A DNA stretch of 64,000 nt from assembly GCF_016862555.1 (NCBI RefSeq), contig NZ_BONE01000031.1, forward strand, positions 1 to 64,000, read 5' to 3'. Made by a program: the position numbers and the translations under genes. Shown here in pieces: positions 4,474 through 23,445 of the stretch. Origin of the DNA: Asanoa siamensis. GTDB lineage: Bacteria; Actinomycetota; Actinomycetes; Mycobacteriales; Micromonosporaceae. Position 1 is the first letter of the stretch, and each line of letters opens with the position of its first letter. The notes below the pieces were generated by a model. That model saw only the letters and a list, made by a program, of their open reading frames with translations. It had not been told where the DNA came from and ran no database searches.

Positions 4474-4553
4474 GGCGATCTCCCTCGCGTCGGCGGTAGC
4501 GGTCCGTTTCCGATCGTGCCACCGCACACCGGCGCCCGCGCTGGATCGGGGAA

Positions 4554-5363: not shown

Positions 5364-5378
5364 CGTCAGGGTGTCCCT

Positions 5379-5426
5379 TCCGAGTACGGGGGTGATGGCT
5401 GCGGTGCCACCACCCCGTACTTCGGA
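5379..5426. promoter_or_regulatory. Large imperfect hairpin in the fasciclin leader
   Basis: Arms 5379-5398 and 5407-5426 pair over about 18 positions with two single-base bulges around an 8-base loop. It overlaps the candidate -10 element and the leader of the fasciclin gene. It may be an attenuator, an rskA terminator or an operator. Confidence 0.4.
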
Positions 5427-5447
5427 CGTGCCGCCGATGGCGGATGC
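5420..5447 (-). promoter_or_regulatory. Candidate SigK-type ECF promoter of the fasciclin gene
   Basis: The minus strand shows GCATCC (5447-5442), a 16-bp spacer, and CCGAAG (5425-5420). From memory, mycobacterial SigK promoters have CCATCC and CGAAT-like elements with a similar spacer. The element lies immediately after the rskA stop and about 50 bases before the fasciclin start. Confidence 0.45.
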
Positions 5448-5449
5448 AC

Positions 5450-6145: not shown

Positions 6146-6770
6146 CGTCCACCTCCCAACGGCGTCGCAGGTTCGCCAGCCCACGGCGGATGTGGCTTTT
6201 CACCGTACCGAGGGGGAGCCCGGTGACGGCCGCTATCTGCGGGTGGGTGAGGTCGTCGAAGAACGCCAGCTCCAGCGTGCGCCGCTGCTCGGCGGGCAGC
6301 CGGCCCAGCTCGTCGGCCACGACCAGCCGGTCGACGATGCGCTCGGGGAGCTCCGGCTGGTCCGCCGGGGCGACCTGCGCGCCGATGCTGCGGGCGACCC
6401 GGTCGTCGCGTACGGCCGACCGGATCCGGTCGATCGCCTTGCGCCGGGCGATCCCCAGCAGCCAGCCCAGGATCGTGCCCCGCTGCGGGTCGAACGAGTC
6501 CCGCCCCGACCAGGCCGCCACGAACGTGAGCTGCGTGACGTCCTCGGCGTCGGCGCGGTTGCCCAGCAGGCGCTGCGCGAGGTAGAGCACGGCGGCGCCG
6601 TGTCGCTCGTACGCGGTGCGCAGCGCCTTCTCGTCGCCGGCGCGCAGCCGCTCGGCGAGCTCGTCGTCGGTAATGGTCAACCTCCTCCCGGGCAGCCGTT
6701 CTCTGTTCCATTCGCTCCGCGGGCACCGGATGGACGCACCTTTCTTACCCATGCGCGTCGCATCCGCCAC
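6099..6770 (-). CDS. sigK: ECF RNA polymerase sigma factor, SigK type
   Basis: The 223-residue product has sigma region 2 (RAGDEKALRTAYERHGAAVL through DAEDVTQLTFVAAW) and region 4 (LPAEQRRTLELAFFDDLTHP through LPLGTVKSHIRRGLANLRR). I place the start at GTG 6770 because AGGGAGGA lies seven bases before it; a TTG at the MTITDDEL position has its purine tract directly against the codon. The neighbour downstream is an RskA-like anti-sigma gene and the next a fasciclin gene, the same order as the mycobacterial SigK regulon. The gene is divergent from the FAD oxidoreductase, with only 47 bp between the starts, so that oxidoreductase may also belong to the regulon. Confidence 0.85.
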   Translation of the reverse strand: MADATRMGKKGASIRCPRSEWNRERLPGRRLTITDDELAERLRAGDEKALRTAYERHGAAVLYLAQRLLGNRADAEDVTQLTFVAAWSGRDSFDPQRGTILGWLLGIARRKAIDRIRSAVRDDRVARSIGAQVAPADQPELPERIVDRLVVADELGRLPAEQRRTLELAFFDDLTHPQIAAVTGLPLGTVKSHIRRGLANLRRRWEVDGAASRSRSAGSSRAL

Positions 6771-6817
6771 CGGTCGATCCTCCCTAGGATCAGACAGGAC
6801 GGAGAGGCGGCCCCACG

Positions 6818-8353: not shown

Positions 8354-8403
8354 ACGGTTACGTGCTCGTGGGTGGGTGGCCCGGGTCCGGCAAGACCACT
8401 TAA
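8350..8403 (+). pseudogene. 17-codon stub of a P-loop ATPase/kinase gene
   Basis: An ATG overlapping the oxidoreductase stop (ATGA) opens MNGYVLVGGWPGSGKTT and then TAA. The peptide is a perfect Walker A start (GxPGSGKTT after a hydrophobic strand), as at the beginning of AAA/nucleotide-kinase-like proteins. The frame closes immediately after the P-loop. The translational coupling suggests the kinase was once the second gene of this operon and that all but its first 17 codons were deleted, with a junction at about 8400. Confidence 0.55.
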
Positions 8404-8407
8404 TCGG

Positions 8408-9010
8408 TCAGGGCCGCAGGGCGACCGCCCGCATCGCGACGTCGACCGAGGCCTGGAGCTCTTCCCGGCTCGCGCCGGCCGCCGCGTGGACGGCGTGGCC
8501 CTCGCTCAGCGCCATCACGAACCGGGCCAGCGCGCGGGCGTCCACGCCCTCCGGGAGGTCGCCTTCCTCCGCCGCCCGGGAGAGGCGCTCCACGATCGCG
8601 GACTCGGTGGCCGCCCTGCCGGTGGCCAGGATCTCGGCGATCCGGTTGTTCTCCGGCGAGCAGGCCAGGCCACCCTGGATCGACAGGCAGCCGGCCGGGT
8701 GGTCGTCGGCGGTGAGGCCGTCGGCGCTGGCGCGCAGGAAGCCCTCGATGGCCGCGTACGCGGTGGGTGCGGCCAGTGTGGCGCGGGCCCGGGCCACCTG
8801 GCCCTCGTGGTAGCGGGCGAAGGCGCGCTCGAACAGCTGCTCCTTGCTGCCGAACGTGGCGTACAGGCTCGGCCTGTTGATGCCCATCGCGCTGGTCAGG
8901 GCGCTCAGGGAGGCGCCCTCGTAGCCGTGCCGCCAGAAGACGTCGGTGGCGCGTTCGAGGACCGTCTCCTCGTCGAAGGCCCGCGGTCGTCCGATGGCTG
9001 AAGTGCTCAT
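8408..9010 (-). CDS. TetR/AcrR-family repressor
   Basis: The 200-residue protein has a TetR helix-turn-helix in residues 10-60 ([20 protein letters not shown] and [20 protein letters not shown]). The ligand domain contains [11 protein letters not shown], which resembles the subgroup that controls adjacent oxidoreductase genes. It is divergent from the SDR gene at 9126, with 115 bp between them. Three copies of a palindromic site lie in that interval, so it probably represses both itself and the SDR gene until an inducer binds. Confidence 0.9.
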
Positions 9011-9021
9011 GGCGTTCAGTC

Positions 9022-9101
9022 TACCGCTCGGTACAAAAGGTGATCGGGCTCACTACCGATCGGTACAGAAATTGCTACGGTGGTCGTGCAACCGACCGGT
9101 A
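9022..9101. promoter_or_regulatory. Three TetR operator copies (TACCGATCGGTA type)
   Basis: The sites TACCGCTCGGTA (9022-9033), TACCGATCGGTA (9054-9065, perfect palindrome) and AACCGACCGGTA (9090-9101) are each followed by CAAAA or CAGAAA. Start-to-start spacing is 32 and 36 bp, about three helical turns. They fill the interval between the divergent TetR and SDR genes, and the last lies 25 bases before the SDR start. Confidence 0.75.
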
Positions 9102-9125
9102 CAAAAATCCTCCCGGAGGAACCAG

Positions 9126-9812
9126 ATGACCATCACCCTGATCACCGGCGCCAACAAGGGCATCGGCTTCGAGACCGCCAGGCAGCTTCTCGAACGAGGC
9201 CACACCGTGTGGCTCGGCGCCCGCGACGTCGAGCGGGGCGAGCGGGCCGCGGCGGCGCTGGGCGCGCGGTTCGTGCAACTCGACGTCACCGACGACGCCT
9301 CGGTGCGCGCGGCGCTCGCGACCGTCGACGCGGTCGAGGGCCGGCTCGACGTCCTGGTGAACAACGCGGGCGTGCTCGGCGCCGACGCCACCGACGGGCC
9401 GTCGGCGCTGCGCGTGTTCGACATCAACGCGGTCGGGGTCGTCCGGGTCACGGAGGCCGCCCTGCCGCTGTTGCGCAGGTCCGCGAACCCCAGGGTGGTC
9501 AACGTCTCCAGCAGCATGGGGTCGTTCTGGGCGGTCACCAACCCCGAGCGGCCGGAGTACGGCATGCCGCTCCCGCTCTACGCGGCGTCCAAGGCGGCGG
9601 CCACGATGCTCACCGTCCAGTACGCCAAGTCCCAGCCGGGCATCAAGTTCAACGCCCTCGAGCCCGGCACCACCGCGACCGACATGACGGCCGCGTTCGG
9701 GATCGGGCGGTCGGTGACGGAAAGCGCGAAGACCGTCGTACGCCTGGCCACGCTCGACCCGGACGGCCCGACGGGCACCTTCACGGACGAGTACGGCCAC
9801 CTGAGCTGGTAG
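9126..9812 (+). CDS. Short-chain dehydrogenase/reductase
   Basis: The 228-residue SDR has the cofactor motif TGANKGIG (residues 7-14), the NNAG motif near 80 and the catalytic YAASK near residue 150. ATG 9126 has GGAGGAA just upstream. Acidic and basic residues after the second strand (GARDVERGE) suggest NADP(H). It is divergent from the TetR regulator and preceded by its operators, so it is probably induced by a small carbonyl compound or drug. Its stop lies four bases from the end of the convergent, frameshifted membrane gene. Confidence 0.88.
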   Translation: MTITLITGANKGIGFETARQLLERGHTVWLGARDVERGERAAAALGARFVQLDVTDDASVRAALATVDAVEGRLDVLVNNAGVLGADATDGPSALRVFDINAVGVVRVTEAALPLLRRSANPRVVNVSSSMGSFWAVTNPERPEYGMPLPLYAASKAAATMLTVQYAKSQPGIKFNALEPGTTATDMTAAFGIGRSVTESAKTVVRLATLDPDGPTGTFTDEYGHLSW

Positions 9813-9815
9813 GGG

Positions 9816-10107
9816 CTACGCGGTCCAGTCGAGCCAGGCATCGCCGGCCGAGAGGACCGCGAGCCCAGATCGCGACGGCGGCGACGGGCACGGCCGGCGT
9901 CCAGAGTGGACGGGCGCGTAGCAGGGTGATCGCGAGCGCCAGCAGGGCGGCCCAGATGACGAGCAGGACACCCACCGCCCAGGCGGGGACGGCGAGCCCG
10001 CTGACCACGTAGAGGAACAGCACCGCGATGTGCCCGGCGATGCCGGTCCAGCCCACGACCCGGCCGACCGGGCTCGGCCGGACGGCTGATCCGGAGGAGT
10101 TCGTCAT
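9816..10107 (-). pseudogene. Small two-to-three-helix membrane protein, frameshifted near its end
   Basis: From ATG 10107 the product reads MTNSSGSAVRPSPVGRVVGW, then two hydrophobic helices (GIAGHIAVLFLYVVSGLAV; VGVLLVIWAALLALAITLL) and a third beginning PVAAVAIW. In the open frame it continues as a basic tail to a stop at 9781, inside the SDR gene. Dropping one G in the TGGG at about 9869 restores IWLAVLSAGDAWLDWTA and a stop at 9816, just outside the SDR gene. That hydrophobic-then-aromatic ending is what such proteins normally have. The whole span is 292 nt, 3n+1. This is either a real one-base insertion or a sequencing error. Confidence 0.65.
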
Positions 10108-10234
10108 CCGCCCAGGATGACAGCGATCGTGTGACGAGCTGCCACGCAATGTCGACCAGCTCGACGGAGCACGAACGCATGATCTCGCTGAGCACCGGTT
10201 CACCGGCACTCTCGCCGATGCTCTGGTGACGCGA

Positions 10235-10792
10235 TCAGTACTGGCCGCGGCCCACGACGGTGGCCGACGCCCGCAGCAGTGCCTCGGCCGTATGGCGTCC
10301 GTCGCCGGCGGCCCAGCGTACGACGACGGATCTGTGGAGCCGTGCGGCCAGTACTCGTTCGCCGGACGCGGTCAGGGCCGCGGTCGCGGTCCAAGATGGA
10401 GCGCCCACGCCGACGGCGAGCCACCGGCCGGGCTCGAGCGGCGGGACGACTCGGGTCGTGCCCGGACCGCCTACCACGACGGGCACGTCTTGTCCGATAT
10501 GGAGTGCGCGGACGGCGCCCTGCACCGCGGTACCGATCTCGGCGTCCGTCCGGTCGCCGCCGGTGACGTCGACCGCCGTCTCGATCAACCCGTCCTCGGG
10601 CCGGCCGGGCTGCGCGGGCCGGGCGCTGCTGGACGGCGCGGGGCCGGCCGCGGCGAGCGTGGCGAGGACGTCGGCCAGCGTGACTCGGCCGCCTACACCG
10701 GTGCCCGCGATTGCCGACGGCTCGAACGCGTGCAACCGGGCTAGCGCGCGAACCGCGGGAGACAGGTAGCCGGTTGGCTGGGCGAGCGTCAT
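10235..10792 (-). CDS. E2-like protein: subunit-binding domain and degenerate acyltransferase domain
   Basis: The 185-residue protein begins with a peripheral-subunit-binding domain, YLSPAVRALARLHAFEPSAI and GTGVGGRVTLADVL (about residues 9-45). This is the domain by which E2 scaffolds bind E1 or E3. No lipoyl domain precedes it. The remaining 125 residues look like a shrunken E2 catalytic domain. Near the end the usual HxxxDG reads WAAGDG, so the catalytic His is absent. It is the last gene of a four-gene run in which every junction is a 4-bp overlap. I infer a structural adaptor rather than an active acyltransferase; a divergent independent function is possible. Confidence 0.6.
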   Translation of the reverse strand: MTLAQPTGYLSPAVRALARLHAFEPSAIAGTGVGGRVTLADVLATLAAAGPAPSSSARPAQPGRPEDGLIETAVDVTGGDRTDAEIGTAVQGAVRALHIGQDVPVVVGGPGTTRVVPPLEPGRWLAVGVGAPSWTATAALTASGERVLAARLHRSVVVRWAAGDGRHTAEALLRASATVVGRGQY

Positions 10793-11085
10793 TTCCCCTC
10801 CGCCAGCCGGTTGGGGTGTGACGCGAGCACCTCCACGGTGGCCGTGATCCAGGGCCACATGGGCAACGACGTGAGCGCCTCGTGCAGCGCGGTGGCCCCG
10901 GAGACCGACCACAGGCTCCACGACGCACGCCGCCCGGGTGCTCGCCAAAGCTCGCGCAGCATGCCCGAGCGCTGCAGCTCGTGCGCGCGCTCACGTTCCG
11001 CACGCCGCAGCGCCGACAGCTCGTCTTGGGAGACCTCGGCCGGCTCGGCGTACTCCAACCGCACCAGGTACTGCTCGGTGCTCAC
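10789..11085 (-). CDS. Muconolactone-isomerase-like protein
   Basis: The 98-residue protein has the muconolactone delta-isomerase family pattern: a first beta strand (YLVRLEYAEP), a long helix rich in Arg/Glu (RRAERERAHELQRSGML), LWRAPGRRASWSLWSVSG, and LPMWPWITATVEVLASHPN. The LWR-PG and LP-P-HP blocks match the family, and the length is right. GTG 11085 overlaps the E1 beta stop, and its own stop overlaps the next ATG. Known members isomerise muconolactone in the beta-ketoadipate pathway, but no other gene of that pathway is here. In this operon it may act on a sugar-derived lactone; that is inference. Confidence 0.75.
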   Translation of the reverse strand: MSTEQYLVRLEYAEPAEVSQDELSALRRAERERAHELQRSGMLRELWRAPGRRASWSLWSVSGATALHEALTSLPMWPWITATVEVLASHPNRLAEGK

Positions 11086-12059
11086 CAGGTGACCAGCTTC
11101 CGGACCTCGGACACGATCCGCGACACCGATGGGAGCCAGGCGTCCTCCAGCCCGGGGCTGTAGGGCACCGGCGTCTCGTCGGCACCGATCACGAGCGGCG
11201 GTGCGTCGAAAAGAGTGAAGTTGTCCGCGGTCATCCGAGCCACCAGCGACGCGCCCCAGGAGCCGCCGTGCGGCGCTTCCTGAACGACGGCGAGCCGGTG
11301 CGTGCGCCGCAGGCTGTCCGCCACCGCCTCGTCGTCGAACGGTACGAGCGTGCGCGGGTCGATCACGGTGGCGGAAATACCCTCCGCGGCCAGCTGGTCC
11401 GCTGCCTCCGCGGCGCGGTGGCGCATCTGCTGGATGGCGACGATCGTGACGTCCGTGCCCTCGCGCACGACGGTGGCCTTGCCAAGTGGGATCGCGAGGG
11501 TGTCTGCGGAGACCTCGCCCTTGAGCGCGAACAGGTTCTTGTGCTCGAACACCAGCACCGGGTCGTCGTCGGCGATCGCGGTGCGCAGCAGCCCGTACAG
11601 GTCTTCGACAGTGCCTGGTACCGCGATCTTCAGGCCGGGAATGTTGAGGAACCAGTTCTCCGCCGGCTGGCTGTGCTGTGCCGCGAACCCGGCTCCGGCG
11701 CCGTTGGCCATCCGTACGGTGACTGGCAGCCGCACCTGCCCGCCGGTCATGTACCGGTATTTGGCCAGCTGGTTGGCGAGCTGGTCGAAGCAAACGCCGG
11801 CGAAGTCGGCGAACATGATCTCGGCGATCGGACGCAGGCCGGTCATGGCCGCGCCGATCGCGGTGCCGACGATGGCTTGCTCGGAGATGGGTGTGTCGCG
11901 CACCCGCCGCGGACCGAACTCTTCGAACAGTCCGGCCGTCGTCTTGAAGGCCCCCCCGGCAGCGCCGACGTCTTCGCCGATCAGGAAGACGTCGGGGTCG
12001 GCGCGCATCGCGTCCGCGATGGCCACTGCGATGACCTTGCGGTAATTGATCTGAGTCAT
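11082..12059 (-). CDS. 2-oxoacid dehydrogenase E1 beta subunit
   Basis: The 325-residue protein is a full-length E1 beta of the PDH/BCKDH/acetoin dehydrogenase class. It starts MTQINYRKVIAVAIADAMRA, then has FLIGEDVGAAGGAFKTTAGL, DTPISEQAIVGTAIGAAMTG and EIMFADFAGVCFDQLANQLA. The C-terminal transketolase domain is present (VIDPRTLVPFDDEAV). With E1 alpha it forms the TPP-dependent decarboxylase. The ATG overlaps the E1 alpha stop (ATGA), indicating stoichiometric translation. The substrate is not fixed by sequence; acetoin dehydrogenase-like and branched-chain-like enzymes both look like this. Confidence 0.88.
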   Translation of the reverse strand: MTQINYRKVIAVAIADAMRADPDVFLIGEDVGAAGGAFKTTAGLFEEFGPRRVRDTPISEQAIVGTAIGAAMTGLRPIAEIMFADFAGVCFDQLANQLAKYRYMTGGQVRLPVTVRMANGAGAGFAAQHSQPAENWFLNIPGLKIAVPGTVEDLYGLLRTAIADDDPVLVFEHKNLFALKGEVSADTLAIPLGKATVVREGTDVTIVAIQQMRHRAAEAADQLAAEGISATVIDPRTLVPFDDEAVADSLRRTHRLAVVQEAPHGGSWGASLVARMTADNFTLFDAPPLVIGADETPVPYSPGLEDAWLPSVSRIVSEVRKLVTW

Positions 12060-13054
12060 GCCGCCGCCCCATACACGTCCCGCAGCCGGCTCGCCGGGTC
12101 AGGCTCGGGCATGTCCATGGCCCGGCGTAGCGCCGCGTCGACCTCGGCGGCGGCCTCCCGCTCGACGTCCTCCGGTGGCGGATGGGCGCCGCCGGCCCGC
12201 ATCGCGTCGCTCAGCAGCGTGATCGGGTCGCGGGCCAGCCACCGGTCGAGCTCGCCAGCCGGCCGGTACGTCGCCGGGTCGCTGCGTGAATGCCCGACCT
12301 GGCGATAGGTGTCGGCCTCGATCAGGGTCGGGCCCTGCCCGACCCGGGCCCGTGCCACGGCAGCCTCCATCACCGCATGGACGGCGACCACGTCGTTGCC
12401 GTCGACGTACTCGCCAGGCATGCCGTAGCCGGCGGCGCGGTCGGCGAGCCGGTCGATCGGGGTGGTCGAGCGCAGCGGGCTGTACTCGCCGTACTGGTTG
12501 TTCTCGATGAGGAAGACCACCGGGAGCCGCCAGACGGACGCCATGTTGAGCGACTCGTGGAAGGCGCCGATGTTGGTGGCGCCGTCACCGAAGATGGCCA
12601 CCGATACGTCGCCTCGACCGTGGTAGGATGAGGTCAGTGCCGCGCCTACGCTGATGGGCAGGTGGGCGCCGACGATGGCGTTGCTGCCCAGTGCACCGAC
12701 CGACACGTCGGTCAGGTGCATCGACCCGCCCTTGCCGCCACAGAGACCGCCCGCCCTGCCCAGGATCTCGCCGAAGCACGCGTCGAGCGGCGCGCCCTTG
12801 GCGATCACCGCACCGTGCCCGCGGTACGTGCAGGTCATCGTGTCGGAGGGCCGGAGCGCGGCGCAGGCACCCACTGAGACAGCCTCCTGACCCTGGCACA
12901 GGTGCGTGCTGCCGCGTACCAGGCCTCGGGTGAACAGGTCCATGACGGTGTTCTCGAACAGCCGGATCCGCCACATCTGGCGGAGGAGGTCGGCGGCGCC
13001 TTCGGGGGCGCCGCCGGCCAGCGATGCGGTGGCGGGGGACAGCTCGACGGGCAT
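12056..13054 (-). CDS. 2-oxoacid dehydrogenase E1 alpha subunit (TPP)
   Basis: The 332-residue protein carries the thiamine-diphosphate motif GDGATNIGAFHESLNMAS, running on to IENNQYG, at about residues 155-190. It also has the conserved GKGGSMH loop (about 108-114) and the GHSRSDPATYR segment that in PDH-type E1 is the phosphorylation/active-site loop. It follows the LacI gene by 18 bases with AGGAA before the ATG, so it belongs to the same transcript. The nearest functional relatives are E1 alpha of pyruvate, branched-chain or acetoin dehydrogenases. No E3 gene and no lipoylated E2 are in the window. Confidence 0.88.
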   Translation of the reverse strand: MPVELSPATASLAGGAPEGAADLLRQMWRIRLFENTVMDLFTRGLVRGSTHLCQGQEAVSVGACAALRPSDTMTCTYRGHGAVIAKGAPLDACFGEILGRAGGLCGGKGGSMHLTDVSVGALGSNAIVGAHLPISVGAALTSSYHGRGDVSVAIFGDGATNIGAFHESLNMASVWRLPVVFLIENNQYGEYSPLRSTTPIDRLADRAAGYGMPGEYVDGNDVVAVHAVMEAAVARARVGQGPTLIEADTYRQVGHSRSDPATYRPAGELDRWLARDPITLLSDAMRAGGAHPPPEDVEREAAAEVDAALRRAMDMPEPDPASRLRDVYGAAA

Positions 13055-13072
13055 GGTTCCTCTTCGCTCTTC

Positions 13073-14119
13073 CTAGGAGGTCAGCCGTGCGGGGGGAGCG
13101 CACGAACCGGCGGGCCGGAACCCGGTCGGCAGGACCTCGATGCGTGGTGGTTGGCCATCGATGAGGTCGAGAAGCAGTCCGGCCGCGGCCCGGCCGATCG
13201 CGGCCGTATCGCGCGAGATGGTGGCCAGCGCCGGCGTGAGGAAGCCGGCGAGCGTCAGATCGTCACAGGTGACGAGGCTGACGTCGTGCGGAACGTGGAC
13301 GCCGAGCTCGCGGGCCGCGTGCAGCACGCCGACCAGGATCTGGTTGCTGCCGGCGATGATCGCGGTTGGGGGTTCCTTGCCGCTGAGCAGCTCCATGGTG
13401 CTCTTGTATCCGTGCTCCGGGCTGAACGTGCCGTGCCGCACGGTCGCGTTGACCCCGGACCCGCGACAGGCCCGACGCAGCGCCTGCTGCCGCTCGCGGC
13501 TGGGGCGCACGGCGGCGCTGCCGTTGATGAGCGCGATCCTCTGGTGGCCTAGCGAGATCAGGTGGGCGACCGCCTCGCCGATGCCCCGCGCGTGGTCGGA
13601 GAGGACCGCGGACCGGACCGCCGGCAGCTCACGGTCGATGAGGACGACCCGCAGCTTCAGGCTCGACAGCGCCTCCGTGATGCCAGGATGGCCTTCGTCC
13701 GATACAGAGATGAGCATGCCGTCGACCCTGCGGCGAGAGAGCATGCGGATGCGATCCGCCTCCGTGCTCGGATCGCGGAACGCGTTGGTGATGAGGAGGC
13801 TGAAACCGCGGTCCTGCAGCCGGGTCTCCGCTGCCAATGCGATCTCGGCGAACAGGGGGTTGGAGATGTCCGAGACGATGAAGCCGATCGACATCGTCGC
13901 GCCTCGTCGCAGGCTCTGCGCCAGCATGTCCGGCTCGTAGCCGAGCGCGCTGACCGCATCGAGAACGCGGTTGCGCATGACCGCCGAGACGTCGGGATGG
14001 CCGGACAGCACGCGCGATACCGACGAGGGGGCGACGCCGGCCCGGTCGGCGACCTGCCGGATCCCCGTGCGACTGGCAGGGGAGGTGTCGGCCGCGGCGC
14101 CAAGGGGGGCGGCCGTCAT
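13073..14119 (-). CDS. LacI-family transcriptional regulator
   Basis: The 348-residue protein has a LacI helix-turn-helix at about residues 18-45 (IRQVADRAGVAPSSVSRVLS) and the hinge helix GYEPDMLAQSLRRG. A periplasmic-binding-type effector domain follows (IGFIVSDISNPLFAEIALAA, DGMLISV, GHQRIALINGS). ATG 14119 overlaps the stop of the TIM-barrel gene. Three TGGAA-N4-TTCC palindromes at 15064, 17388 and 17566 are good candidates for its operators; each lies in a control region of the surrounding sugar genes. A 6-deoxysugar or derived acid is the likely inducer. Confidence 0.9.
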   Translation of the reverse strand: MTAAPLGAAADTSPASRTGIRQVADRAGVAPSSVSRVLSGHPDVSAVMRNRVLDAVSALGYEPDMLAQSLRRGATMSIGFIVSDISNPLFAEIALAAETRLQDRGFSLLITNAFRDPSTEADRIRMLSRRRVDGMLISVSDEGHPGITEALSSLKLRVVLIDRELPAVRSAVLSDHARGIGEAVAHLISLGHQRIALINGSAAVRPSRERQQALRRACRGSGVNATVRHGTFSPEHGYKSTMELLSGKEPPTAIIAGSNQILVGVLHAARELGVHVPHDVSLVTCDDLTLAGFLTPALATISRDTAAIGRAAAGLLLDLIDGQPPRIEVLPTGFRPAGSCAPPARLTS

Positions 14120-14994
14120 CGCGTCCCCGCCGCCGGCGTCGACGTGTCGTCCTGGCAGGCGGACAGAGCGGCGCGCAACCTGTCCCGGAGGCAGACGGTC
14201 TCGGTGAGGTTGTCGACCTTGTCGCAGTCGCGCCATGACGCCCAGACATACTCCGTGGTGAGCCACCCGTCGTAGCCGACGTGGGTGAGCGCCCTGACCA
14301 TCCGGGCCCAGTCGATCGTGTTCTCCGCGGCAGAGGCCTGCAGCAGGCCCGGTGCGCCACCGCGGGCCTGCACGTGCCGCACGTGCGGCAGCAGCGGCTC
14401 GATGTCGTCTTCGGTGGCGCCTGCGCAGACGAAGTGCGCGTAGTCGATGGTCAGCCCGAGGCCCGGACAGGCCGCGACCAGCGCGGCGGTCCGCCCGGGC
14501 GTGTCGATGATGCTCTCCACGTGTGGCTCGACCGACAGCCGGAGCCCGCGTGCCTCCGCCGCGCGTAGCATGGCGCCCAACGTCCCTGCCGCGCGGTTGA
14601 TGCTCTCGTGCCACGGCTCGTCCGGGTGCGCGATGCCGGGGAGCACAGTCACGCCGCCGCTGCCCACCGCAGCGGCGAAGTCGAGGGCGGGCTCGAGCAG
14701 CCGCACCGCTTCGGCGCGGACGCCCTCGTCGGGGTGGCTCGGCGCGTACCGGGCGAAGTCGTCGGCAAGCTGGACGAAGACGTCGGCGACCACGAGCCCG
14801 CGCGTCTCGACCCGCTCGCGCACCTGTCCGGCCAGCCGCTCGACGCCAATGGTGGCCAGATGCTCCGGCCGGAGGTGGCTGCCCCCGGCGAAGAGACCGA
14901 CATCGACTCCGGCAAAGCCCAGCCTGGCGATGAGGTCGAGCGCCGCCCGGTGGTCGACGGCTGGCCAGGTGTAGTCGGCGCAGGCAAGTCGCAC
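14116..14994 (-). CDS. Sugar-phosphate isomerase/epimerase-like TIM-barrel protein
   Basis: The 292-residue product starts at GTG 14994 with GGGAGGAG seven bases upstream. It has the xylose-isomerase-like (AP endonuclease 2) barrel with its usual metal ligands: Glu in LSVEPH, Asp/His in LTIDYAHFV, His in HVRHVQARG and a late Glu in LTTEYVWAS. Members isomerise, epimerise or dehydrate sugars and keto-sugars such as hydroxypyruvate, inosose or tagatose. It is the first gene of a six-gene operon and divergent from rhaM, with a LacI-type operator between them. Confidence 0.8.
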   Translation of the reverse strand: MRLACADYTWPAVDHRAALDLIARLGFAGVDVGLFAGGSHLRPEHLATIGVERLAGQVRERVETRGLVVADVFVQLADDFARYAPSHPDEGVRAEAVRLLEPALDFAAAVGSGGVTVLPGIAHPDEPWHESINRAAGTLGAMLRAAEARGLRLSVEPHVESIIDTPGRTAALVAACPGLGLTIDYAHFVCAGATEDDIEPLLPHVRHVQARGGAPGLLQASAAENTIDWARMVRALTHVGYDGWLTTEYVWASWRDCDKVDNLTETVCLRDRLRAALSACQDDTSTPAAGTR

Positions 14995-15019: not shown

Positions 15020-15079
15020 TTGACACGCACACCTGGATGCGGTTGATTGGTGACCGTAGCAGGCTGGAAACGGTTCCGG
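15020..15079. promoter_or_regulatory. Divergent promoter region with LacI operator (rhaM side)
   Basis: TTGACA at 15020-15025 faces the rhaM gene. An operator-like element, GGAAACGGTTCC (15066-15077, 10 of 12 positions symmetric, central CG), lies about 44 bases downstream, where a repressor would block initiation. The -10 element is weak. The interval also drives the divergent TIM-barrel/LacI/E1 operon. Confidence 0.6.
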
Positions 15080-15091
15080 AAGGGGTTGAGG

Positions 15092-15406
15092 ATGAGGCGG
15101 GCATGCTTCACCTTCCTTTTACGACCAGGGTGCGAGTCGGAGTACGAACGTCGGCACCGGGAGGTGTGGCCGGAGTTGCAGGACGTGCTGCGCGCCTCGG
15201 GCGTACGCAACTACACGCTCTTCCGGCACGGCCGCACGGTCATCGCCTACTGCGAGTGCGAGCCGGACGCACCGACCGCTTTCGGCCTGGCGGGCGCCAG
15301 CGAGGTGAACGCCCGCTGGTCGGCCTGGTTCGAAGACGTCATCGAGGAGCTCACCGACTCCGACGGCAACCTCCGTTACGCCGCCGAGGTATGGCATCTG
15401 GATTAG
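15092..15406 (+). CDS. rhaM: L-rhamnose mutarotase
   Basis: The 104-residue protein has exactly the length of E. coli RhaM/YiiL and conserves its YERRH block (Tyr18, His22). It also keeps WPEL and the RWSAWF counterpart of RWWKYM. RhaM interconverts the alpha and beta anomers of L-rhamnose, so that import and the next enzyme are not limited by slow mutarotation. ATG 15092 is chosen because it restores that length; an upstream in-frame codon at 15047 would give a 15-residue extension unlike the family. It is the strongest pointer to the substrate of the whole region. L-fucose mutarotases belong to a different family. Confidence 0.85.
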   Translation: MRRACFTFLLRPGCESEYERRHREVWPELQDVLRASGVRNYTLFRHGRTVIAYCECEPDAPTAFGLAGASEVNARWSAWFEDVIEELTDSDGNLRYAAEVWHLD

Positions 15407-15437: not shown

Positions 15438-16196
15438 TCAGTAGGCCAGCCAGCCGCCGCTGACGTTGAGGATCGTGCCGGTGACGAAGGCGGACTCGGG
15501 GGAGGCGAGGAAGAGCGTGGGGCCGACGAGGTCTTCCGGCTGGCCGACGCGGCCCAGTGGGGTCGCCGCGACGATCGCGTCGATCGCCGCGCCGCTCAGC
15601 ATCGGTGTGTCCACAATGCCGGGAGCGATGCCGTTGACCCGCACGCCGTAGGGGCCGTAGGTGCGCGCCAGGCCGCGCACCATCGTCGCTACGCCTCCCT
15701 TCGTGGTGGCGTAGACGACGCTCGCGCCGTAACCGCCGGTCCAGAACGACTGCGACGTGTACAGCACGATCGAGCCACCGCCCTGCTCCCGTTGTTGCTC
15801 GGCGACGGCGCGGGCGAGGAAGAAGGTCGCCTTGAGGTTGACGTCGTGCTGGTGGTCCCAGTCGGCTTCGGTCACGTCGGGCACCTCCTGGCGGCGCAGC
15901 ACCGCCGCGGTGTGCACCAGCACGTCGAGCCCGCCGAGCCGGGCAGCGCACCCTTCGGCCAATGCCTGGGCGCCGTCCGCGCCGGACAGGCGGACCGGCA
16001 GCGTTGTGTGCCCGCCTCCGGGCAGGGATTCGGCCAGCGCGTCGAGCGCGTCGCCATCCACATCGGAGAGCGCCAGCCTGGCCCCGGCCCGGGCGAGTCC
16101 GTTGGCGAGCGCGTAGGCGATGCCACCGCAAGCGCCGGTCAGCAGGACCCGTCGCCCCGCGAGCGAGTGGGCGCCACGGTCGGGCTCGGTGGTCAC
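15438..16196 (-). CDS. SDR-family sugar/sugar-acid dehydrogenase
   Basis: The 252-residue SDR has TGACGGIAYALANGLARAG as cofactor site (a GxxGG variant), the NAG-equivalent VHTAAV near residue 90 and the catalytic YATTKGG near 160. The C-terminal VTGTILNVSGGWLAY is typical of sugar and sugar-acid SDRs (3-oxoacyl reductase/glucose dehydrogenase type). Asp in SDVDGD suggests NAD(H). GTG 16196 overlaps the enolase stop. A role as L-rhamnose 1-dehydrogenase or as the 2-keto-3-deoxy-acid dehydrogenase of the diketo-hydrolase route would fit. Sequence alone does not decide. Confidence 0.82.
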   Translation of the reverse strand: MTTEPDRGAHSLAGRRVLLTGACGGIAYALANGLARAGARLALSDVDGDALDALAESLPGGGHTTLPVRLSGADGAQALAEGCAARLGGLDVLVHTAAVLRRQEVPDVTEADWDHQHDVNLKATFFLARAVAEQQREQGGGSIVLYTSQSFWTGGYGASVVYATTKGGVATMVRGLARTYGPYGVRVNGIAPGIVDTPMLSGAAIDAIVAATPLGRVGQPEDLVGPTLFLASPESAFVTGTILNVSGGWLAY

Positions 16197-17353
16197 CGCG
16201 CCACCGTCCAGCGCTCGACGAAGTCGGGGTCGAGCTCCCAGCCAAGACCGGGGGCATCGGTCAACACCAGCTCGCCGTTCTCCAGCGGGGGACGGTTCGC
16301 CACGAGGTTCCACCAGAACGGGTCCCGCTCGGGGTGGAAGCACTCGGCGTACGTGCCGTGCGGCACGCTCGCGAGCAGGTGGGTGGAGACCTGCGGCTCC
16401 TCGTGATGCCCCATCTGAACGTCGTACGCCGTGGCGATCGCGGCGGCGCGGCGCCACGCCGTAGGCCCGCCGCTCCAGGAGGCGTCGAAGTTGCAGACGT
16501 CGACCGCGCCTGACTCCATGAGGTCGCGGCAGCCGGACGGGGAGAGCTCGCTCTGCCCGGCGCAGACCGGGATGCCGCCGCGCATGCGTACGTCGCGCAG
16601 CGCGCGGCGGTCGTTGGCCCATTGCACCGGTTCCTCGAACCAGCGGATGTCCAGGTCGGCGACCCGCCGGCACAGGTCGAGCGCCTCGCCGGTGGAGTAG
16701 CCCTGGTTGGCGTCGATGGCGATGACAAAGCCGGGCCCGGCGGCCTCTCGCGCCGCTTGGATCCGCGCCGCGTCGACGGCGGGTGTCCGGCCGCCGACCT
16801 TGAACTTGATGCCGGCCAGCCCCACCTCCTGGTAGTAGGCGATCTCGTCGGCGATGCTGCCGAGCGGCTCGCCGTAGTAGCCGCCGATGGCGATGAGCGG
16901 GATCCGGTCGCGGTAGCCGCCCCAGAGGCGCCACAGCGGCTGCTCCAGCGCCTTGCCGACGGCGTCCCACACGGCCGTGTCGACACCGGCGACCGCGACC
17001 AGGCCGAGTCGGCGGTCGCGCAGGATGTTGAAGGTCGCCGGGTACGCCGCCTTCCACACCTGTTCTGTACGCATCGCGTCCATGCCCAGCAGGCGTGGGG
17101 CGATCTCCTGCTGGACGATCGCCTCGATGTCCAGCAGGGACTTGTCCTCGTCGCCGACGTACGCCTCGCCGGTGACTCCGGCGCTCGTGCGGATCCGGAT
17201 GATCAAGGTGGCACGGTGGGTCATCCGGTAGTAGCTGCCCCGAAACTCACGGGCCAGCGGGGCGATCAGCGGGATCGTCTCGATGGACGCGATCGGAAGG
17301 CGGGCAGCGGGGCGCGCGGTCGTGGCTCCCTGGACGGGCGAGATCGATGACAC
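16193..17353 (-). CDS. Enolase-superfamily sugar-acid dehydratase
   Basis: The 386-residue protein starts at GTG 17353 with AGGAGG eight bases upstream. It carries the KxK catalytic pair (AGIKFKVGG), metal ligands Asp (AIDANQGYS), Glu (WFEEPVQW) and Glu (CAGQSELS), and a His in VQMGHHEEP. This is the mandelate-racemase-type active site used by many sugar-acid dehydratases. It is the first gene of a two-gene operon with the SDR and has a perfect TGGAA-N4-TTCCA operator in its leader. L-rhamnonate or a related 6-deoxyaldonate is a reasonable substrate, by context only. Confidence 0.85.
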   Translation of the reverse strand: MSSISPVQGATTARPAARLPIASIETIPLIAPLAREFRGSYYRMTHRATLIIRIRTSAGVTGEAYVGDEDKSLLDIEAIVQQEIAPRLLGMDAMRTEQVWKAAYPATFNILRDRRLGLVAVAGVDTAVWDAVGKALEQPLWRLWGGYRDRIPLIAIGGYYGEPLGSIADEIAYYQEVGLAGIKFKVGGRTPAVDAARIQAAREAAGPGFVIAIDANQGYSTGEALDLCRRVADLDIRWFEEPVQWANDRRALRDVRMRGGIPVCAGQSELSPSGCRDLMESGAVDVCNFDASWSGGPTAWRRAAAIATAYDVQMGHHEEPQVSTHLLASVPHGTYAECFHPERDPFWWNLVANRPPLENGELVLTDAPGLGWELDPDFVERWTVAR

Positions 17354-17606: not shown

Positions 17607-18686
17607 ATGAGGCCGAGTCACCATCGGCGGCGAGTCAGAGGTGTCTCGCTGTCCTTGGCACTGGTCGCCGCGCTAGGCGTGGTCAGCGCCTGCGGCGGCG
17701 GGACGAACGATTCACCCTCCGCGACGCAGCAGACCGGCGCGAGCAGCGCCGCCGCGGGGGACAGCGGGCCACAGTTCGTCGACTTCCGGACCGTCGAGCC
17801 AGGGAGCGGCGCCGGCCTGAAGTTGGGCTACATCTCCCTGTCCGAGGCGGTGCCGTTCATCAAGCTGGTCAGCGACTCGATAAAGAAGCAGGCCGAGGCG
17901 GCCGGCGCTGAGCTGGTCTTCTGCGACAGCCAGGGCGATGCGGCCAAGGCCCTCGAGTGCGCCCGAAACTTCAAGACCCAGGGTGTGCAGGGCTACCTGA
18001 ACTTCCAGCAGGACGCCAAGGCCGCCGCGGCCATCTGTCAGGCCGGTCCGCAGGTCCCGGTCGTGGCGATCGACATCCAGCAGGATCCCTGTCAGAAGGC
18101 GTTCATGGGCGCCAACAACGACCGGGCCGGCTTCATCGCCGGCGAGGCGGTCGGAAACCACGCGAAGAGCCAGTGGGACTGCCAGTACGACGGCTTCGTC
18201 TCGCTGGAGCAACCGGAGGCCGGCGCGGTCAACGAGGCTCGAATGGGTGGCTACCGCAAGGGTTTCGAGAGCGTCTGCGGGCCCGGCTCGGTCAAGAACC
18301 TCAAGAAGGTGAACGCGTTCCGGGTCGACATGGCGCGGACCGCGGTGGCCGATGTGTTGACCTCGCTGCCCGGCGCCAAAAAGATCATCGTGGTGGGGAT
18401 CAACGACGACTCCATCCTCGGCGCGCTCGCCGCCGCTCGCACGGTGGGCCGCCAAGGCGATGTCTTCGTCGCGGCCCAGGGCGCGGACCCATCCTCGTGG
18501 TGCGAGATCAAGTCCAACCCCAACTGGATCGCGGACACGGCCTACTTCCCGGAGCGATACGGCGAGATCGGTATCCCCTACCTCATCGACCTGGTCAAGA
18601 ACAAGTCTGTCCCGGCGAACCTGCTGGTCAACCACCAGGCCGTGACGAAGGACAACGTCGAGCAGCTGTACCAGCCGAGCTGCTGA
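17607..18686 (+). CDS. Sugar ABC transporter substrate-binding lipoprotein
   Basis: The 359-residue protein has a lipoprotein signal with lipobox VVSAC, acylated Cys at residue 29. It then has a type I periplasmic-binding fold of the ribose/rhamnose class (LKLGYISLSEAVPFIKLVSD and later GINDDSILGALAAARTVGR). Several Cys residues in the mature part are unusual for this family and could form disulfides. It is first in an operon with the ATPase and permease, and has a LacI-type operator directly before its start. The position next to rhaM makes L-rhamnose or a rhamnose-containing oligosaccharide a candidate ligand. Confidence 0.88.
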   Translation: MRPSHHRRRVRGVSLSLALVAALGVVSACGGGTNDSPSATQQTGASSAAAGDSGPQFVDFRTVEPGSGAGLKLGYISLSEAVPFIKLVSDSIKKQAEAAGAELVFCDSQGDAAKALECARNFKTQGVQGYLNFQQDAKAAAAICQAGPQVPVVAIDIQQDPCQKAFMGANNDRAGFIAGEAVGNHAKSQWDCQYDGFVSLEQPEAGAVNEARMGGYRKGFESVCGPGSVKNLKKVNAFRVDMARTAVADVLTSLPGAKKIIVVGINDDSILGALAAARTVGRQGDVFVAAQGADPSSWCEIKSNPNWIADTAYFPERYGEIGIPYLIDLVKNKSVPANLLVNHQAVTKDNVEQLYQPSC

Positions 18687-18711
18687 CCACGGAACCGAGG
18701 TGGAGGCGCCA

Positions 18712-20214
<1,503 letters not shown>

Positions 20215-20232
20215 CTGCCGGGAGATCCCCAC

Positions 20233-21249
20233 ATGACCCAGCTGACGTCCGATCCGCAGGCCGCCGGGCCGCCGCCGGTCGAGACCACTGCCGTCCTGAC
20301 CGCCACACGCCCAGGCCGGTCCCTGCCCGAACTGGCGGGCCTGCTGGTCGTACTGGTGGTGCTGATCGGATTCTTCGCCTGGCGCAGTCCCTACTTCTTC
20401 AACGTGGACAACTTCCTCAACATCCTCACCGCCATCGCGGTAACCGGGATCATCGCGATGCCGGGCACGATGCTGCTGGTGTCCGCCCAGGTCGACCTGT
20501 CGGTAGGCTCGGCGGCGGCGTTCTGCGGGGTCGTGCTGGCGGTGGTCGCGGAGAGCAGCGGCCTGGCCGCCGGCGTTCTCGTCGCGCTCCTGGCCGGGCT
20601 GGCGCTGGGCGTCGCCAACGGCTTCCTGGTCACGGTGGTCAAGGTCAACGCGCTGATCACGACGCTCGGTACGCTCGCCGTGCTGCGCGGCTTCACCCAG
20701 CTCACCGCCGACGGCCAGACCGTACTGCTGGGGATCGGGTTCGGCTGGCTCGGCACCGCCCGCCCGCTGGGCATTCCGCTGCCGGTCATCCTGCTGGCCG
20801 TGGTCGTCGCCGCGTCGTTCGTGGCCATGCGCTACACCGTCTTCGGCCGGTCGCTCTACGCCATCGGTGCCAACGCCGCAGCCGCGCGGCTCGTCGGCAT
20901 CCGCAACCGGGCGGTCATCTTCGCCGCGTTCGTGCTCTCGGGCCTGGCCGCCTGCCTTGCGGGCCTCATCCTTACAAGCCAGCTCTCCGCGGCGTCGCCG
21001 ATCGCCGCAAGCGGCCTGGAACTCAGCGTGATCACCGCGATCGTCCTGGGCGGAGCAAGCCTCTCCGGTGGGCGGGGCAGCGTCGGTGGCACGATCGTCG
21101 GCCTCGTCATCATCGGCGTCCTCAACAACGGGCTGATCCTGTTGAATGTCAACACCTTCTGGCAGGACATCGCGCGCGGAAGCCTACTCATCCTCGCGGT
21201 CTCCTTCGACCAGCTGCGCCAGCGCCTCCAACCCAACACACGCGGCTAG
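20233..21249 (+). CDS. Sugar ABC transporter permease (RbsC-like)
   Basis: The 338-residue membrane protein has eight to ten hydrophobic segments. It also has family landmarks: SPYFFNVDNFLNIL, AQVDLSVGSAAAFCG, ANGFLVTVVKVNALITTLGT, and VFGRSLYAIGANAAAARLVG, the coupling region. It works as a homodimer with the two-domain ATPase and the binding lipoprotein encoded just upstream. The ATG follows the ATPase stop by 18 bases with GGGAG in between. Confidence 0.92.
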   Translation: MTQLTSDPQAAGPPPVETTAVLTATRPGRSLPELAGLLVVLVVLIGFFAWRSPYFFNVDNFLNILTAIAVTGIIAMPGTMLLVSAQVDLSVGSAAAFCGVVLAVVAESSGLAAGVLVALLAGLALGVANGFLVTVVKVNALITTLGTLAVLRGFTQLTADGQTVLLGIGFGWLGTARPLGIPLPVILLAVVVAASFVAMRYTVFGRSLYAIGANAAAARLVGIRNRAVIFAAFVLSGLAACLAGLILTSQLSAASPIAASGLELSVITAIVLGGASLSGGRGSVGGTIVGLVIIGVLNNGLILLNVNTFWQDIARGSLLILAVSFDQLRQRLQPNTRG

Positions 21250-21259
21250 GGGAATCCTC

Positions 21260-22312
21260 ATGACGCTTCGGCTTGGCGTTATCGGCGCCGGCTCCTGGGC
21301 CAACGCGGCACACCTGCCAGCCCTCGCGGCCCGCAAGGAGGTGGAGTTCGTGGCCGTGTCACGCAAGGGCGAGCCGGCACTGCGGCGGATACGCGAGCGG
21401 TACGGCTTCACCGAGGCGAGCGAGGACTACCGGGTCGTGGTGGACGCCGGCTGCGACATCGTCGTCGTGGCCAGCCCGGCGGCGTTCCACCACGAACACG
21501 CCAAGGCCGCCCTCATGGCCGGCGCTCACGTGTTGTGCGAAAAGCCTTTCACCATCGAACCGGACCACGCCCGGGACCTTGTCGAGACCGCCCGCCGTCA
21601 CGACCGACAGCTGCTGGTCAGCTTCGGGTGGAACTACATGCCCATCGTGCGGCGGGCCAAGGAGCTGGTCGCGATCGGCGGCATCGGGCACCTGGAGCAG
21701 ATGGCCATCACGATGTCCTCCCAGACCCGCGAGCTGCTCGCCGACCGGGGCGCCTACCCCGACGCCAGCGCCGACTCGGCACCAGAGCCAGCCACCTGGA
21801 CCGACCCGGCGCTCTCCGGCGGCGGGTACGGACAGGCTCAGCTGGCACACGCGCTCGGCCTCGCCCTGCACCTCGTACCGGCCCGGGTGACCGAGGCGTT
21901 CGCCTGGATGTCGCCGTCTCCCAGCGCGGGTGTCGAGCTGCACGACGCGATCGCGCTGCGGTTCGACGGCGGCGGTGTCGGCACACTCGCCGGGGGCTCG
22001 GCCCACCTGGGCGCCGGCGGCAACAAGCACGCGCTCGCGCTACGGGCCATCGGCGACGAGGGCCAGCTACTGGTCGACGTCGAGCGGGAATGCGTCTGGC
22101 TGTACCGCAACGACGGAACCGACGAGCGTCTGGAGCTCGCCGCCGGCGACGGCGCATACGCGTTCGCCGGACCGGCCGACGCGCTCGTCGACGTCGCCCT
22201 CGGCCGCGTCGAGGAGAACCGGGCGCCGGGCGAGCTCGGCCAGCTCACCGTCGAGGCGCTCGACGCAGCGTACCGCTCGGCGGCCAGCGGCAAGCCGGAG
22301 GCGGTGCGGTGA
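21260..22312 (+). CDS. Gfo/Idh/MocA-family sugar oxidoreductase
   Basis: The 350-residue protein has the N-terminal Rossmann motif GVIGAGSWANAAHLPALAA and the EKPF motif (LCEKPFTIEPDHA) whose Lys is catalytic in this family. The C-terminal alpha/beta domain follows. ATG 21260 comes 11 bases after the permease stop. Such enzymes oxidise sugars or keto-sugars (for example inositol, glucose, 1,5-anhydrofructose) with NAD(P). Its stop overlaps the GTG of the second enolase gene, suggesting sequential steps. Confidence 0.85.
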   Translation: MTLRLGVIGAGSWANAAHLPALAARKEVEFVAVSRKGEPALRRIRERYGFTEASEDYRVVVDAGCDIVVVASPAAFHHEHAKAALMAGAHVLCEKPFTIEPDHARDLVETARRHDRQLLVSFGWNYMPIVRRAKELVAIGGIGHLEQMAITMSSQTRELLADRGAYPDASADSAPEPATWTDPALSGGGYGQAQLAHALGLALHLVPARVTEAFAWMSPSPSAGVELHDAIALRFDGGGVGTLAGGSAHLGAGGNKHALALRAIGDEGQLLVDVERECVWLYRNDGTDERLELAAGDGAYAFAGPADALVDVALGRVEENRAPGELGQLTVEALDAAYRSAASGKPEAVR

Positions 22313-23445
22313 CCGGCTCGCGGATCGCCCGAGTCGAGGCATGGCCAGTCGCATACACCGAACCAAACGACCACGATGGACAGCGCTTCGTCACGATCGT
22401 GCGGCTGACGGCCGACGACGGGACCACCGGCTGGGGCGAGGCCGTGACGTTGTTTCGCGAGGCAGCGCTCGCCACGGCGGTGCTGGTGGACGGTCTGGCC
22501 GAGGTGGTCGTCGGCGCTGACGCCGGCCGGCCGGCCGCGCTGTGGCATGCGGTGAAGGAGCAGACCTGGTGGTACGGCGAGGGTGGCATCGCCACGTTCG
22601 CGCTGTCCGCCATCGACATCGCGGCCTGGGACCTGACCGGCCGGCTGCGCGGCGTGCCCGTCGTCGACCTGCTCGGTGGCGCGGTGCATGAGAGCCTACC
22701 GATCTGTGTCACCTCCCACGCCACCATGGCCGACCTGGGCGAGGAGGCCGAGCGGTTCGCCGGCTGGATCGACGAGCTGCGGGCGATCGGCTGCAAGGTC
22801 GGCTTCGGCAAGCGCGGCGAGGCCAACCTCGGCTTCGACCACGACCGGGACATCGCGTTCGTCCGCCGGCTCCGCGGCGCGATCGGCGACGAGCGGCAGA
22901 TCATGATCGACCTCGGGGTGCGGGTGCGGTGGAGCGTCGCCGACGCTGTCCGCCGGGTACGCGGCTTCGAGGAGGAACGCGTCCACTGGGTCGAGGAGCC
23001 GCTGGGTGCGGACAACCCAGCGGGTTACGCGACCCTGAGGGCGAAAACGAACACGTTGATCGCGTACGGCGAGCGGGAGTGGACGGTGAGCGGCTACCGA
23101 CGGATCGTCGACACCGGCACCGTCGACGTCGTCGGCATCGACGCCGGACGGGCGGAAGGGCTGACCGGCTTCATGCGGGCCAGCCAGTATGCCTCCTCGG
23201 CACAGCGGCAGGTCAACGCGCACGCGTTCGCTGGGCCGCTGTCATATGCGGCGGGCCTCGCCGCTTCCCTGGTATCCCCGACCTGCCACCAGATGGAGGT
23301 CGCGCCGCTGGTCAACTCAGCGGTCCGCGACCTCGCACCAACCTTGCCTCGCCCGAGCCACGGCCGGGTCACCGCCCTGCCCGGAGCCGGGCTCGGCGTC
23401 GAGATCGATGAAAGCGCTTTGGGTGCGATGCGCCTCGAGCCATAG
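22309..23445 (+). CDS. Second enolase-superfamily enzyme
   Basis: The 378-residue protein has the enolase-superfamily capping domain, then a barrel with GCKVGFGKRGE where the KxK is altered, metal ligands in MIDLGVRVRW (Asp), VHWVEEPLGADN (Glu) and IAYGERE (Glu), and NAHAF near the usual His position. It differs clearly from the first enolase (16193-17353), so a different acid sugar or a racemase function is likely. GTG 22309 overlaps the oxidoreductase stop. It is the last gene of the importer operon. Confidence 0.8.
   Translation: MTGSRIARVEAWPVAYTEPNDHDGQRFVTIVRLTADDGTTGWGEAVTLFREAALATAVLVDGLAEVVVGADAGRPAALWHAVKEQTWWYGEGGIATFALSAIDIAAWDLTGRLRGVPVVDLLGGAVHESLPICVTSHATMADLGEEAERFAGWIDELRAIGCKVGFGKRGEANLGFDHDRDIAFVRRLRGAIGDERQIMIDLGVRVRWSVADAVRRVRGFEEERVHWVEEPLGADNPAGYATLRAKTNTLIAYGEREWTVSGYRRIVDTGTVDVVGIDAGRAEGLTGFMRASQYASSAQRQVNAHAFAGPLSYAAGLAASLVSPTCHQMEVAPLVNSAVRDLAPTLPRPSHGRVTALPGAGLGVEIDESALGAMRLEP

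Follow-up and report, generated by a model that had tools for sequence, protein, structure and literature searches.

We describe here a four-gene unit from the actinobacterium Asanoa siamensis, located on contig NZ_BONE01000031.1 (C31 in the following) in a stretch of 64,000 nucleotides which is referred to as the window. The unit encodes both subunits of a 2-oxoacid dehydrogenase E1 (E1 alpha and E1 beta), a small protein of the muconolactone-isomerase (MIase) family and an E2-like protein with a peripheral-subunit-binding domain (PSBD). It is real, well-formed and unusual; the E1 alpha/beta theme itself is known. Our comparison of gene neighbourhoods has shown that MIase-like proteins repeatedly accompany such E1s, and this recurrent E1-MIase sugar module is a broader finding than the stand-alone PSBD protein, which is so far an oddity of a single genome. 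A description of the E1-MIase sugar combination was not found in the open-access literature, of which for some topics only the best-ranked titles were covered. Quite possibly, and this is the reading that we tentatively favour, the E1 borrows its lipoyl carrier from an E2 whose gene lies on contig C7 of the same genome, the PSBD protein serving as adaptor, in the catabolism of sugar acids.

The unit consists of the following features (aa, amino acids; TPP, thiamine pyrophosphate):

12056..13054, minus strand: E1 alpha, 332 aa, TPP-binding half of a 2-oxoacid dehydrogenase E1 (PF00676, E1_dh, 7e-75)
11082..12059, minus strand: E1 beta, 325 aa (PF02779, Transket_pyr, 7e-41; PF02780, Transketolase_C, 1e-30)
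10789..11085, minus strand: MIase-like protein, 98 aa, GTG start (PF02426, 3.7e-26)
10795..10801, minus strand: Shine-Dalgarno-like GGAGGGG before the ATG of the E2-like gene (read from sequence)
10235..10792, minus strand: E2-like docking protein, 185 aa, PSBD and an orphan C-terminal part of 123 aa (PF02817, 3e-9)
10664..10765, minus strand: PSBD within the E2-like protein (PF02817, 37-40 bits)

All three junctions are 4-bp overlaps in the order E1 alpha, E1 beta, MIase-like, E2-like. Coordinates, overlaps and Pfam matches thus bear out an earlier sequence-only reading of this DNA, which had proposed four overlapping genes of these families.

To describe the recurrence, genomes were hand-picked for strong MIase matches. 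Within 10 kb of the MIase gene, an E1 alpha (E<=1e-40) was found in 8 of the 27 genomes, the A. siamensis genome included, compared to 0.21 expected under uniform placement; as six of the eight positives belong to one genus, they represent three independent lineages. In total, 17 loci with E1 and MIase were collected (the window, L042, L171, L117, L175, L173, L174, L176, L096, L097, L103 and L128-L133). Such loci occur on plasmids of Actinomycetota, in relatives of the window genome and in metagenome-assembled genomes (MAGs) labelled Chloroflexi and Bryobacteraceae.

By tblastn, only one of these 17 loci (L042) has lipoyl and E2 catalytic domains, and a PSBD is found in two, namely L042 and the window. 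The absence of these domains is a weak one in L175, L117, L103 and L097, which are short or end soon after the E1/MIase genes; L103, L173 and L174 were judged by tblastn or by lists of open reading frames. Related E1 operons are therefore mostly without E2, and neither the assumption that a lipoylated E2 of its own is indispensable to such an E1 nor the suggestion that homologous operons might always include genes for a lipoyl E2 and an E3 agrees with these loci.

The nearest relative found, L176, shares 64–65% identity in E1 alpha, 69% in E1 beta, 65% in the dehydratase and 54% in the LacI-family regulator. Its genes are laid out as dehydratase-E1 alpha-E1 beta-lactonase-like, divergent from LacI-MIase-SDR-Iso_dh-VOC (SDR, short-chain dehydrogenase/reductase; VOC, glyoxalase/VOC fold), and E2 was not found within the 13 kb read. 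In L173, from a genome of 1.5 Mb, LacI, VOC, MIase, E1 beta, E1 alpha, SDR and MR_MLE genes follow each other in succession. Two MAGs labelled Chloroflexi contain a fused E1 beta-alpha together with MR_MLE, MIase, amidohydrolase-like and ABC genes, L096 additionally showing two rhaM-like matches and one SDR. In six genomes of one genus the order is SDR-E1 alpha-E1 beta-VOC-LacI, with the MIase within 9 kb. Proteins of the glyoxalase/VOC fold (151–164 aa) adjoin E1 alpha/beta and MIase in L128-L133, L171, L173 and L176; for L128, L171, L173 and L176 this assignment was made by Pfam. Taken together, the loci suggest a sugar-acid route where E1 works with a partner of the MIase family, usually without a carrier of its own.

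The full order E1 alpha-E1 beta-MIase-E2-like was found in no other locus retrieved. The nearest approach to it was L175, where a fused E1 is followed by MIase and then by the contig end.

Most MIase loci opened are not beside an E1. In detail, an E1 was present in the DNA examined in 3 of 25 loci of one set, and within 1.5 kb in 4 of 30 loci (window included) of a second; in L151 of the latter set the E1 lies 2.6 kb from the MIase once the locus is extended to L176. A third set gave one locus out of 29 at the same distance, if a TPP enzyme of 25% identity in L075 is excluded, and in a fourth (n=19) the window was the sole locus with E1. Among plasmid regions, E1 and MIase occurred together in two of seven. 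No E1 was found by tblastn in L100, L102 and L116.

Other surroundings were seen as well. In L141, L142 and L143, MIase-family genes stand away from any E1 beside two stretches matching ABC ATPases, and in L057, L058, L163 and L168 the MIase domains are duplicated in tandem. In L045 and L046, a neighbour of the MIase-family genes appears to encode a FAD-dependent protein; there is also an IclR-like gene in L045, and there are SDR-like and CitE-like genes in L046, all as read from sequence.

The window E1 itself appears intact. E1 alpha keeps the GDG...ENN TPP motif and the GHS loop when aligned to human pyruvate dehydrogenase (PDH) E1 alpha (1ni4), and E1 beta keeps the HSQ and DTPISE motifs in alignments to solved E1 structures; the aligned TPP, loop His, HSQ and ISE residues presumably have the same functional roles. 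Family models tend to name such genes pyruvate or branched-chain dehydrogenase. E1 beta exceeds the NCBIfam subfamily cut-off for pyruvate dehydrogenase E1 beta (331.7 vs 321 bits), whereas E1 alpha stays under both PDH E1 alpha equivalog cut-offs (316 vs 394 and 242 vs 411 bits).

An unrooted tree built from 26 E1 pairs places the window in a first group (support 0.996) with L176, L096, L097, L173, L174 and six loci without MIase, L134-L139. The second group comprises L042, L175, L171, L117 and L103, and the third L128-L133. Since the E2-linked E1s L196, L192 and L193 are placed between these three groups, the MIase-linked E1s do not form one clade. The group of the window is also separate from the E1 on contig C42 of its own genome (support 0.996). 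When the E2-linked controls are excluded, the TPP motif and HSQ are each kept in 22 of 23 E1 pairs (exception L171), as is DTPxxE (exception L138). In the fused E1 of L171 from Streptomyces chartreusis (6002-7978), the usual TPP/HSQ patterns are absent in the aligned extract and the Pfam matches are strong.

The E1 relatives without MIase show further arrangements. An E2 catalytic domain was not found in any of the six loci L134-L139, and free lipoyl domains of 79 and 86 aa lie beside E1 alpha/beta in L135 and L138. Thus, lipoyl accompanies some members of the E1 group and not others. L135, from the genus of the window (4311-8527), has the order E1 beta-E1 alpha-free 79-aa lipoyl domain-amidohydrolase-like-MR_MLE and is without an E2 catalytic domain. 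In L137 (4953-8385), L138 (3027-6853) and L139 (1079-4496), a protein of 482–484 aa directly follows E1 alpha/beta; Pfam identifies it as an aldehyde dehydrogenase in L137, its counterpart in L138 is similar in sequence, and that in L139 is matched by size only. A second E1 alpha/beta pair without E2 is present in the A. siamensis genome itself (L134; contig C5, 58000-72000, genes at 5722-7688 of the locus). It is 53–55% identical to the pair of the window and is neighboured by cupin, SDR-like and peptidase-like genes.

The possible carriers in the A. siamensis genome were searched for by domain. PF00364 gave eight matches in the whole genome and none on C31, the glycine-cleavage H family not being part of this search. 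By their lysine motif, which we take to distinguish lipoyl-type from biotin-type matches, two on C7 and one on C42 are of the lipoyl type and the remaining ones of the biotin type. A free lipoyl partner on C14 was rejected because its motif, ESMKM, is of the biotin type under the same assumption. The E2 catalytic domain (PF00198) was found in the whole genome on C7, C42 and C14 only and not on C31, and none of the nine genomic matches to the E3-type domain PF02852 is on C31; one PF02852 gene adjoins the E2 on C7. Contig C42 harbours a separate E1-E2 locus. When measured against a complete E1-E2-E3 complex, the operon has the E1 and is without a lipoyl domain, an E2 acyltransferase domain and an E3 gene. 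The view that this module encodes no lipoylated E2 was accordingly supported for the whole contig.

In the E2-like protein, E3_binding (PF02817) is the sole Pfam family at E<=1 (37.4 bits vs a cut-off of 23.7), and NCBIfam E2 models match its PSBD part only. This PSBD is 49% identical over 37 residues to that of the C7 E2, and 36% over 33 residues to that of the C42 E2. When 12 hand-chosen genomes were surveyed with at most 150 candidates scored per genome, 24 of 25 PF02817 sites were located in frames which also match PF00198, and the site of the window was the exception. These 24 frames are all at least 428 aa long, one, in G041, being cut by the contig end. No full-length relative of the E2-like protein was among the matches listed for 200 genomes of the family (16 candidates scored per genome), and none was found in the plasmid collection. 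Compared with an E2 acyltransferase, the protein has the PSBD, while its sequence gave no match to the catalytic domain with HxxxDG.

The MIase-like protein clearly belongs to its family (PF02426, 91.6 bits vs a cut-off of 26.7). However, it is not a true muconolactone isomerase (CatC) by score, as it lies under the NCBIfam equivalog cut-off (69.9 vs 130.6 bits), nor by its sugar context. PDB entries 4fpi and 1mli are relatives. Glu30 and His68 align with 4fpi, and we take their equivalents to be catalytic; in L171 and L175, the MIases linked to E1 lack the equivalent of His68.

The operon extends upstream on the same strand beyond the four genes, with genes for LacI, isomerase, SDR and dehydratase, and further sugar genes follow on the plus strand:

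13073..14119, minus strand: LacI-family regulator directly upstream of E1 alpha (PF00356, PF13377)
14116..14994, minus strand: xylose-isomerase-like TIM-barrel protein, 4-bp overlap with the LacI gene (PF01261, gene call)
15047..15406, plus strand: L-rhamnose-mutarotase-family protein between the operon halves, start uncertain (PF05336, 1.4e-22)
15438..16196, minus strand: SDR dehydrogenase, 4-bp overlap with the dehydratase gene (PF13561, gene call)
16193..17353, minus strand: enolase-superfamily (MR_MLE) sugar-acid dehydratase-like protein 1 (PF13378/PF02746)
17679..21249, plus strand: sugar ABC transporter with binding protein, ATPase and permease (PF13407 for the binding protein; ATPase and permease judged from sequence alone)
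21260..22312, plus strand: Gfo/Idh/MocA-like oxidoreductase (NCBIfam matches below cut-off)
22309..23445, plus strand: enolase-superfamily protein 2 (NCBIfam matches below cut-off; PDB relatives)

Dehydratase-like protein 1 matches PDB entries 4h83, 3no1 and 3msy at E of about 1e-188, the molecule names of which state no activity. None of the identified cluster genes is a catechol-pathway gene, and the rhamnose-mutarotase-family gene hints at a 6-deoxyhexose substrate. The coupling to sugar genes, which had been suggested before, is strong: dehydratase, SDR, isomerase, LacI and importer are all part of the cluster, and the relatives are alike in this respect.

How the operon might work can be proposed from these families. 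It would break down a sugar or sugar acid, the dehydratase forming a 2-oxo-3-deoxy acid which may be further oxidized by the SDR. The MIase-like protein would probably tautomerise or isomerise the substrate (its enol/keto or lactone form) before the E1 step, and E1 alpha/beta would decarboxylate or cleave the resulting 2-oxo acid. The fragment would most likely be passed in trans to the lipoyl domain of the C7 E2, and the PSBD protein, judging by its domain, may act as an adaptor which docks E1 or E3 into the shared machinery. The coupled gene order, the sugar cluster, the intact E1 motifs and the recurrence of E1 with MIase in three tree groups speak for the borrowed carrier, as do the lipoyl domains in L042, L135 and L138, the closer similarity of the PSBD to that of the C7 E2 and the PF02852 gene beside the latter. 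Several points weigh against it. The contact of the window E1 with the C7 E2 is one that we infer. In 15 of the 17 E1-MIase loci neither lipoyl nor PSBD is matched in the DNA examined, and a dedicated docking protein is therefore not a conserved need; the idea that the module keeps only a docking scaffold fits the window genome alone, as the E1s elsewhere do not come with the E2-like protein. An E1 with an aldehyde dehydrogenase-like gene, as in L137-L139, fits the release of a free aldehyde. Finally, the orphan C-terminal region and the occurrence in a single genome are compatible with decay of the E2-like gene.

A plausible, if doubtful, alternative is that E1 alpha/beta needs no carrier at all and is a TPP-dependent enzyme, namely a non-oxidative decarboxylase, a carboligase or a C-C lyase, whose substrate is a 2-oxo or 2,4-dioxo sugar acid. 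The MIase-like protein, often together with a VOC protein, would then prepare the enol/keto form, and an aldehyde dehydrogenase would oxidize any aldehyde. The scarcity of E2 catalytic domains (one of the 17 E1-MIase loci) would be expected in this case. In addition, G903, a single contig of 1.5 Mb, has two PF00198 matches only, both far from its E1, one of them in a frame of 1225 aa that also matches E1. The aldehyde dehydrogenase-like neighbours in L137-L139 and the VOC proteins beside E1/MIase in L128-L133, L171, L173 and L176 are in line with such a chemistry. However, two of the three groups include E1s with a lipoyl domain alongside (L042, L135, L138), and the PSBD of the window makes little sense unless it is a leftover. 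In a wider form, which we consider rather unlikely, there would be a widespread and undescribed sugar-acid pathway in which a carrier-free E1 and a partner of the MIase fold, often with one of the glyoxalase fold too, act by cleavage or decarboxylation on a sugar acid of the 2-oxo or 2,4-dioxo type, the PSBD adaptor having been gained here.

It seems improbable that the E2-like gene is an inactive, decaying remnant of a full E2 which has lost its lipoyl domain and half of the catalytic domain, with E1 and MIase working as in their relatives. No second copy of the protein was found in the genomes, plasmids and loci searched, it is collinear with the Rhodococcus fusion MIase-lipoyl-PSBD-catalytic domain, and its C-terminal part has a high G+C content at second codon positions. 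The codon-position G+C pattern of the gene is also weaker than in the E1 genes. On the other hand, its DNA gives the gene the appearance of a functional one, as judged from its open frame, the GGAGGGG before its ATG and flanks without remnants; it is coupled by a 4-bp overlap, its PSBD exceeds the Pfam cut-off, and the E1s of the window are not sister to those of Rhodococcus. A frameshifted full-length E2, of which the protein could have been a fragment, found no support: tblastn of E2 sequences over 8001-14500 gave a best E of 0.26 outside the MIase/PSBD genes.

Moreover, sequence statistics do not relate the C-terminal part to the E2 catalytic domain. Its 123 aa have no Pfam match and score -2.6 bits with the hidden Markov model (HMM) of that domain, and their E2 profile score is equalled in 28 out of 150 shuffled sequences; when the last 75 residues are scored by themselves, this holds for 81 out of 300. 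In 30 of 296 genomes of the class, the own genome included, there are local matches at E<=0.01, all of them weak; the best non-self match (2.7e-4) contains a stop, and the best one free of stops (4.1e-4) spans 66 residues. Structure models of the full-length protein and the C-terminal part are of low confidence (predicted local distance difference test, 44 and 39). Foldseek ranks E2 cores first to fourth for the full-length model (E 0.14–0.26), which would suit a remnant, and E2 cores are absent from the 50 matches listed for the C-terminal model. The sequence-only reading had taken WAAGDG for a replacement of the catalytic HxxxDG. The letters are present, but as the C-terminal part has neither an E2-catalytic signal nor a full-length relative, this is a resemblance and not a demonstrated homology; on the HMM and shuffle scores, homology to the catalytic domain found no support. 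What stood of that description is the PSBD and the absence of a lipoyl domain, not the degenerate catalytic motif.

An ordinary branched-chain or pyruvate dehydrogenase with E2 and E3 encoded elsewhere and sugar genes adjoining by chance is very improbable: E1 alpha/beta do match these families and E1 beta passes the 321-bit cut-off, but E1 alpha misses both of its own, C42 has a separate E1-E2 locus from which the window E1 group stands apart (support 0.996), and the nearest relatives (L176, 65% and 69%) lie in another dehydratase-LacI-SDR-MIase cluster.

The module opens two questions to experiment. One is whether lipoyl is dispensable for the activity of E1 alpha/beta, the other whether a PSBD protein standing alone is able to bring a foreign E1 to a common E2/E3 core.

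Known systems resemble the module in parts. Like the E1s of the pyruvate, branched-chain 2-oxoacid and acetoin dehydrogenases, the window E1 consists of two subunits, is a TPP enzyme and has kept its TPP and catalytic motifs; unlike them, it shares a sugar-acid operon with an MIase, a dehydratase and an SDR, on a contig without lipoyl, E2 catalytic and E3-type domains. With muconolactone isomerase and 5-chloromuconolactone dehalogenase, the MIase-like protein shares the family and the alignment of Glu30/His68 to 4fpi, whereas it differs in its sub-equivalog score and in that catechol genes were not identified in its cluster. The closest parallel to the gene order is found on plasmid pWB1 of Rhodococcus sp. 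WB1 (NZ_CP015530.1, L042), where E1 alpha/beta are likewise followed by MIase and then PSBD, with sugar isomerase, SDR and Gfo/Idh/MocA genes adjoining. There, however, the E1 is fused and merely 42–43% identical to that of the window, and the MIase is the N-terminal part of a complete lipoyl-PSBD-acyltransferase E2. A precedent for lipoyl supplied in trans in actinobacteria is contained in PMC10415282 and PMC7568260. In contrast to the window, the actinobacterial OdhA/KGD, which shares the lipoyl of AceF, bears an E2 acyltransferase domain of its own; the window has a separate PSBD protein only, and its lipoyl would be provided in trans.

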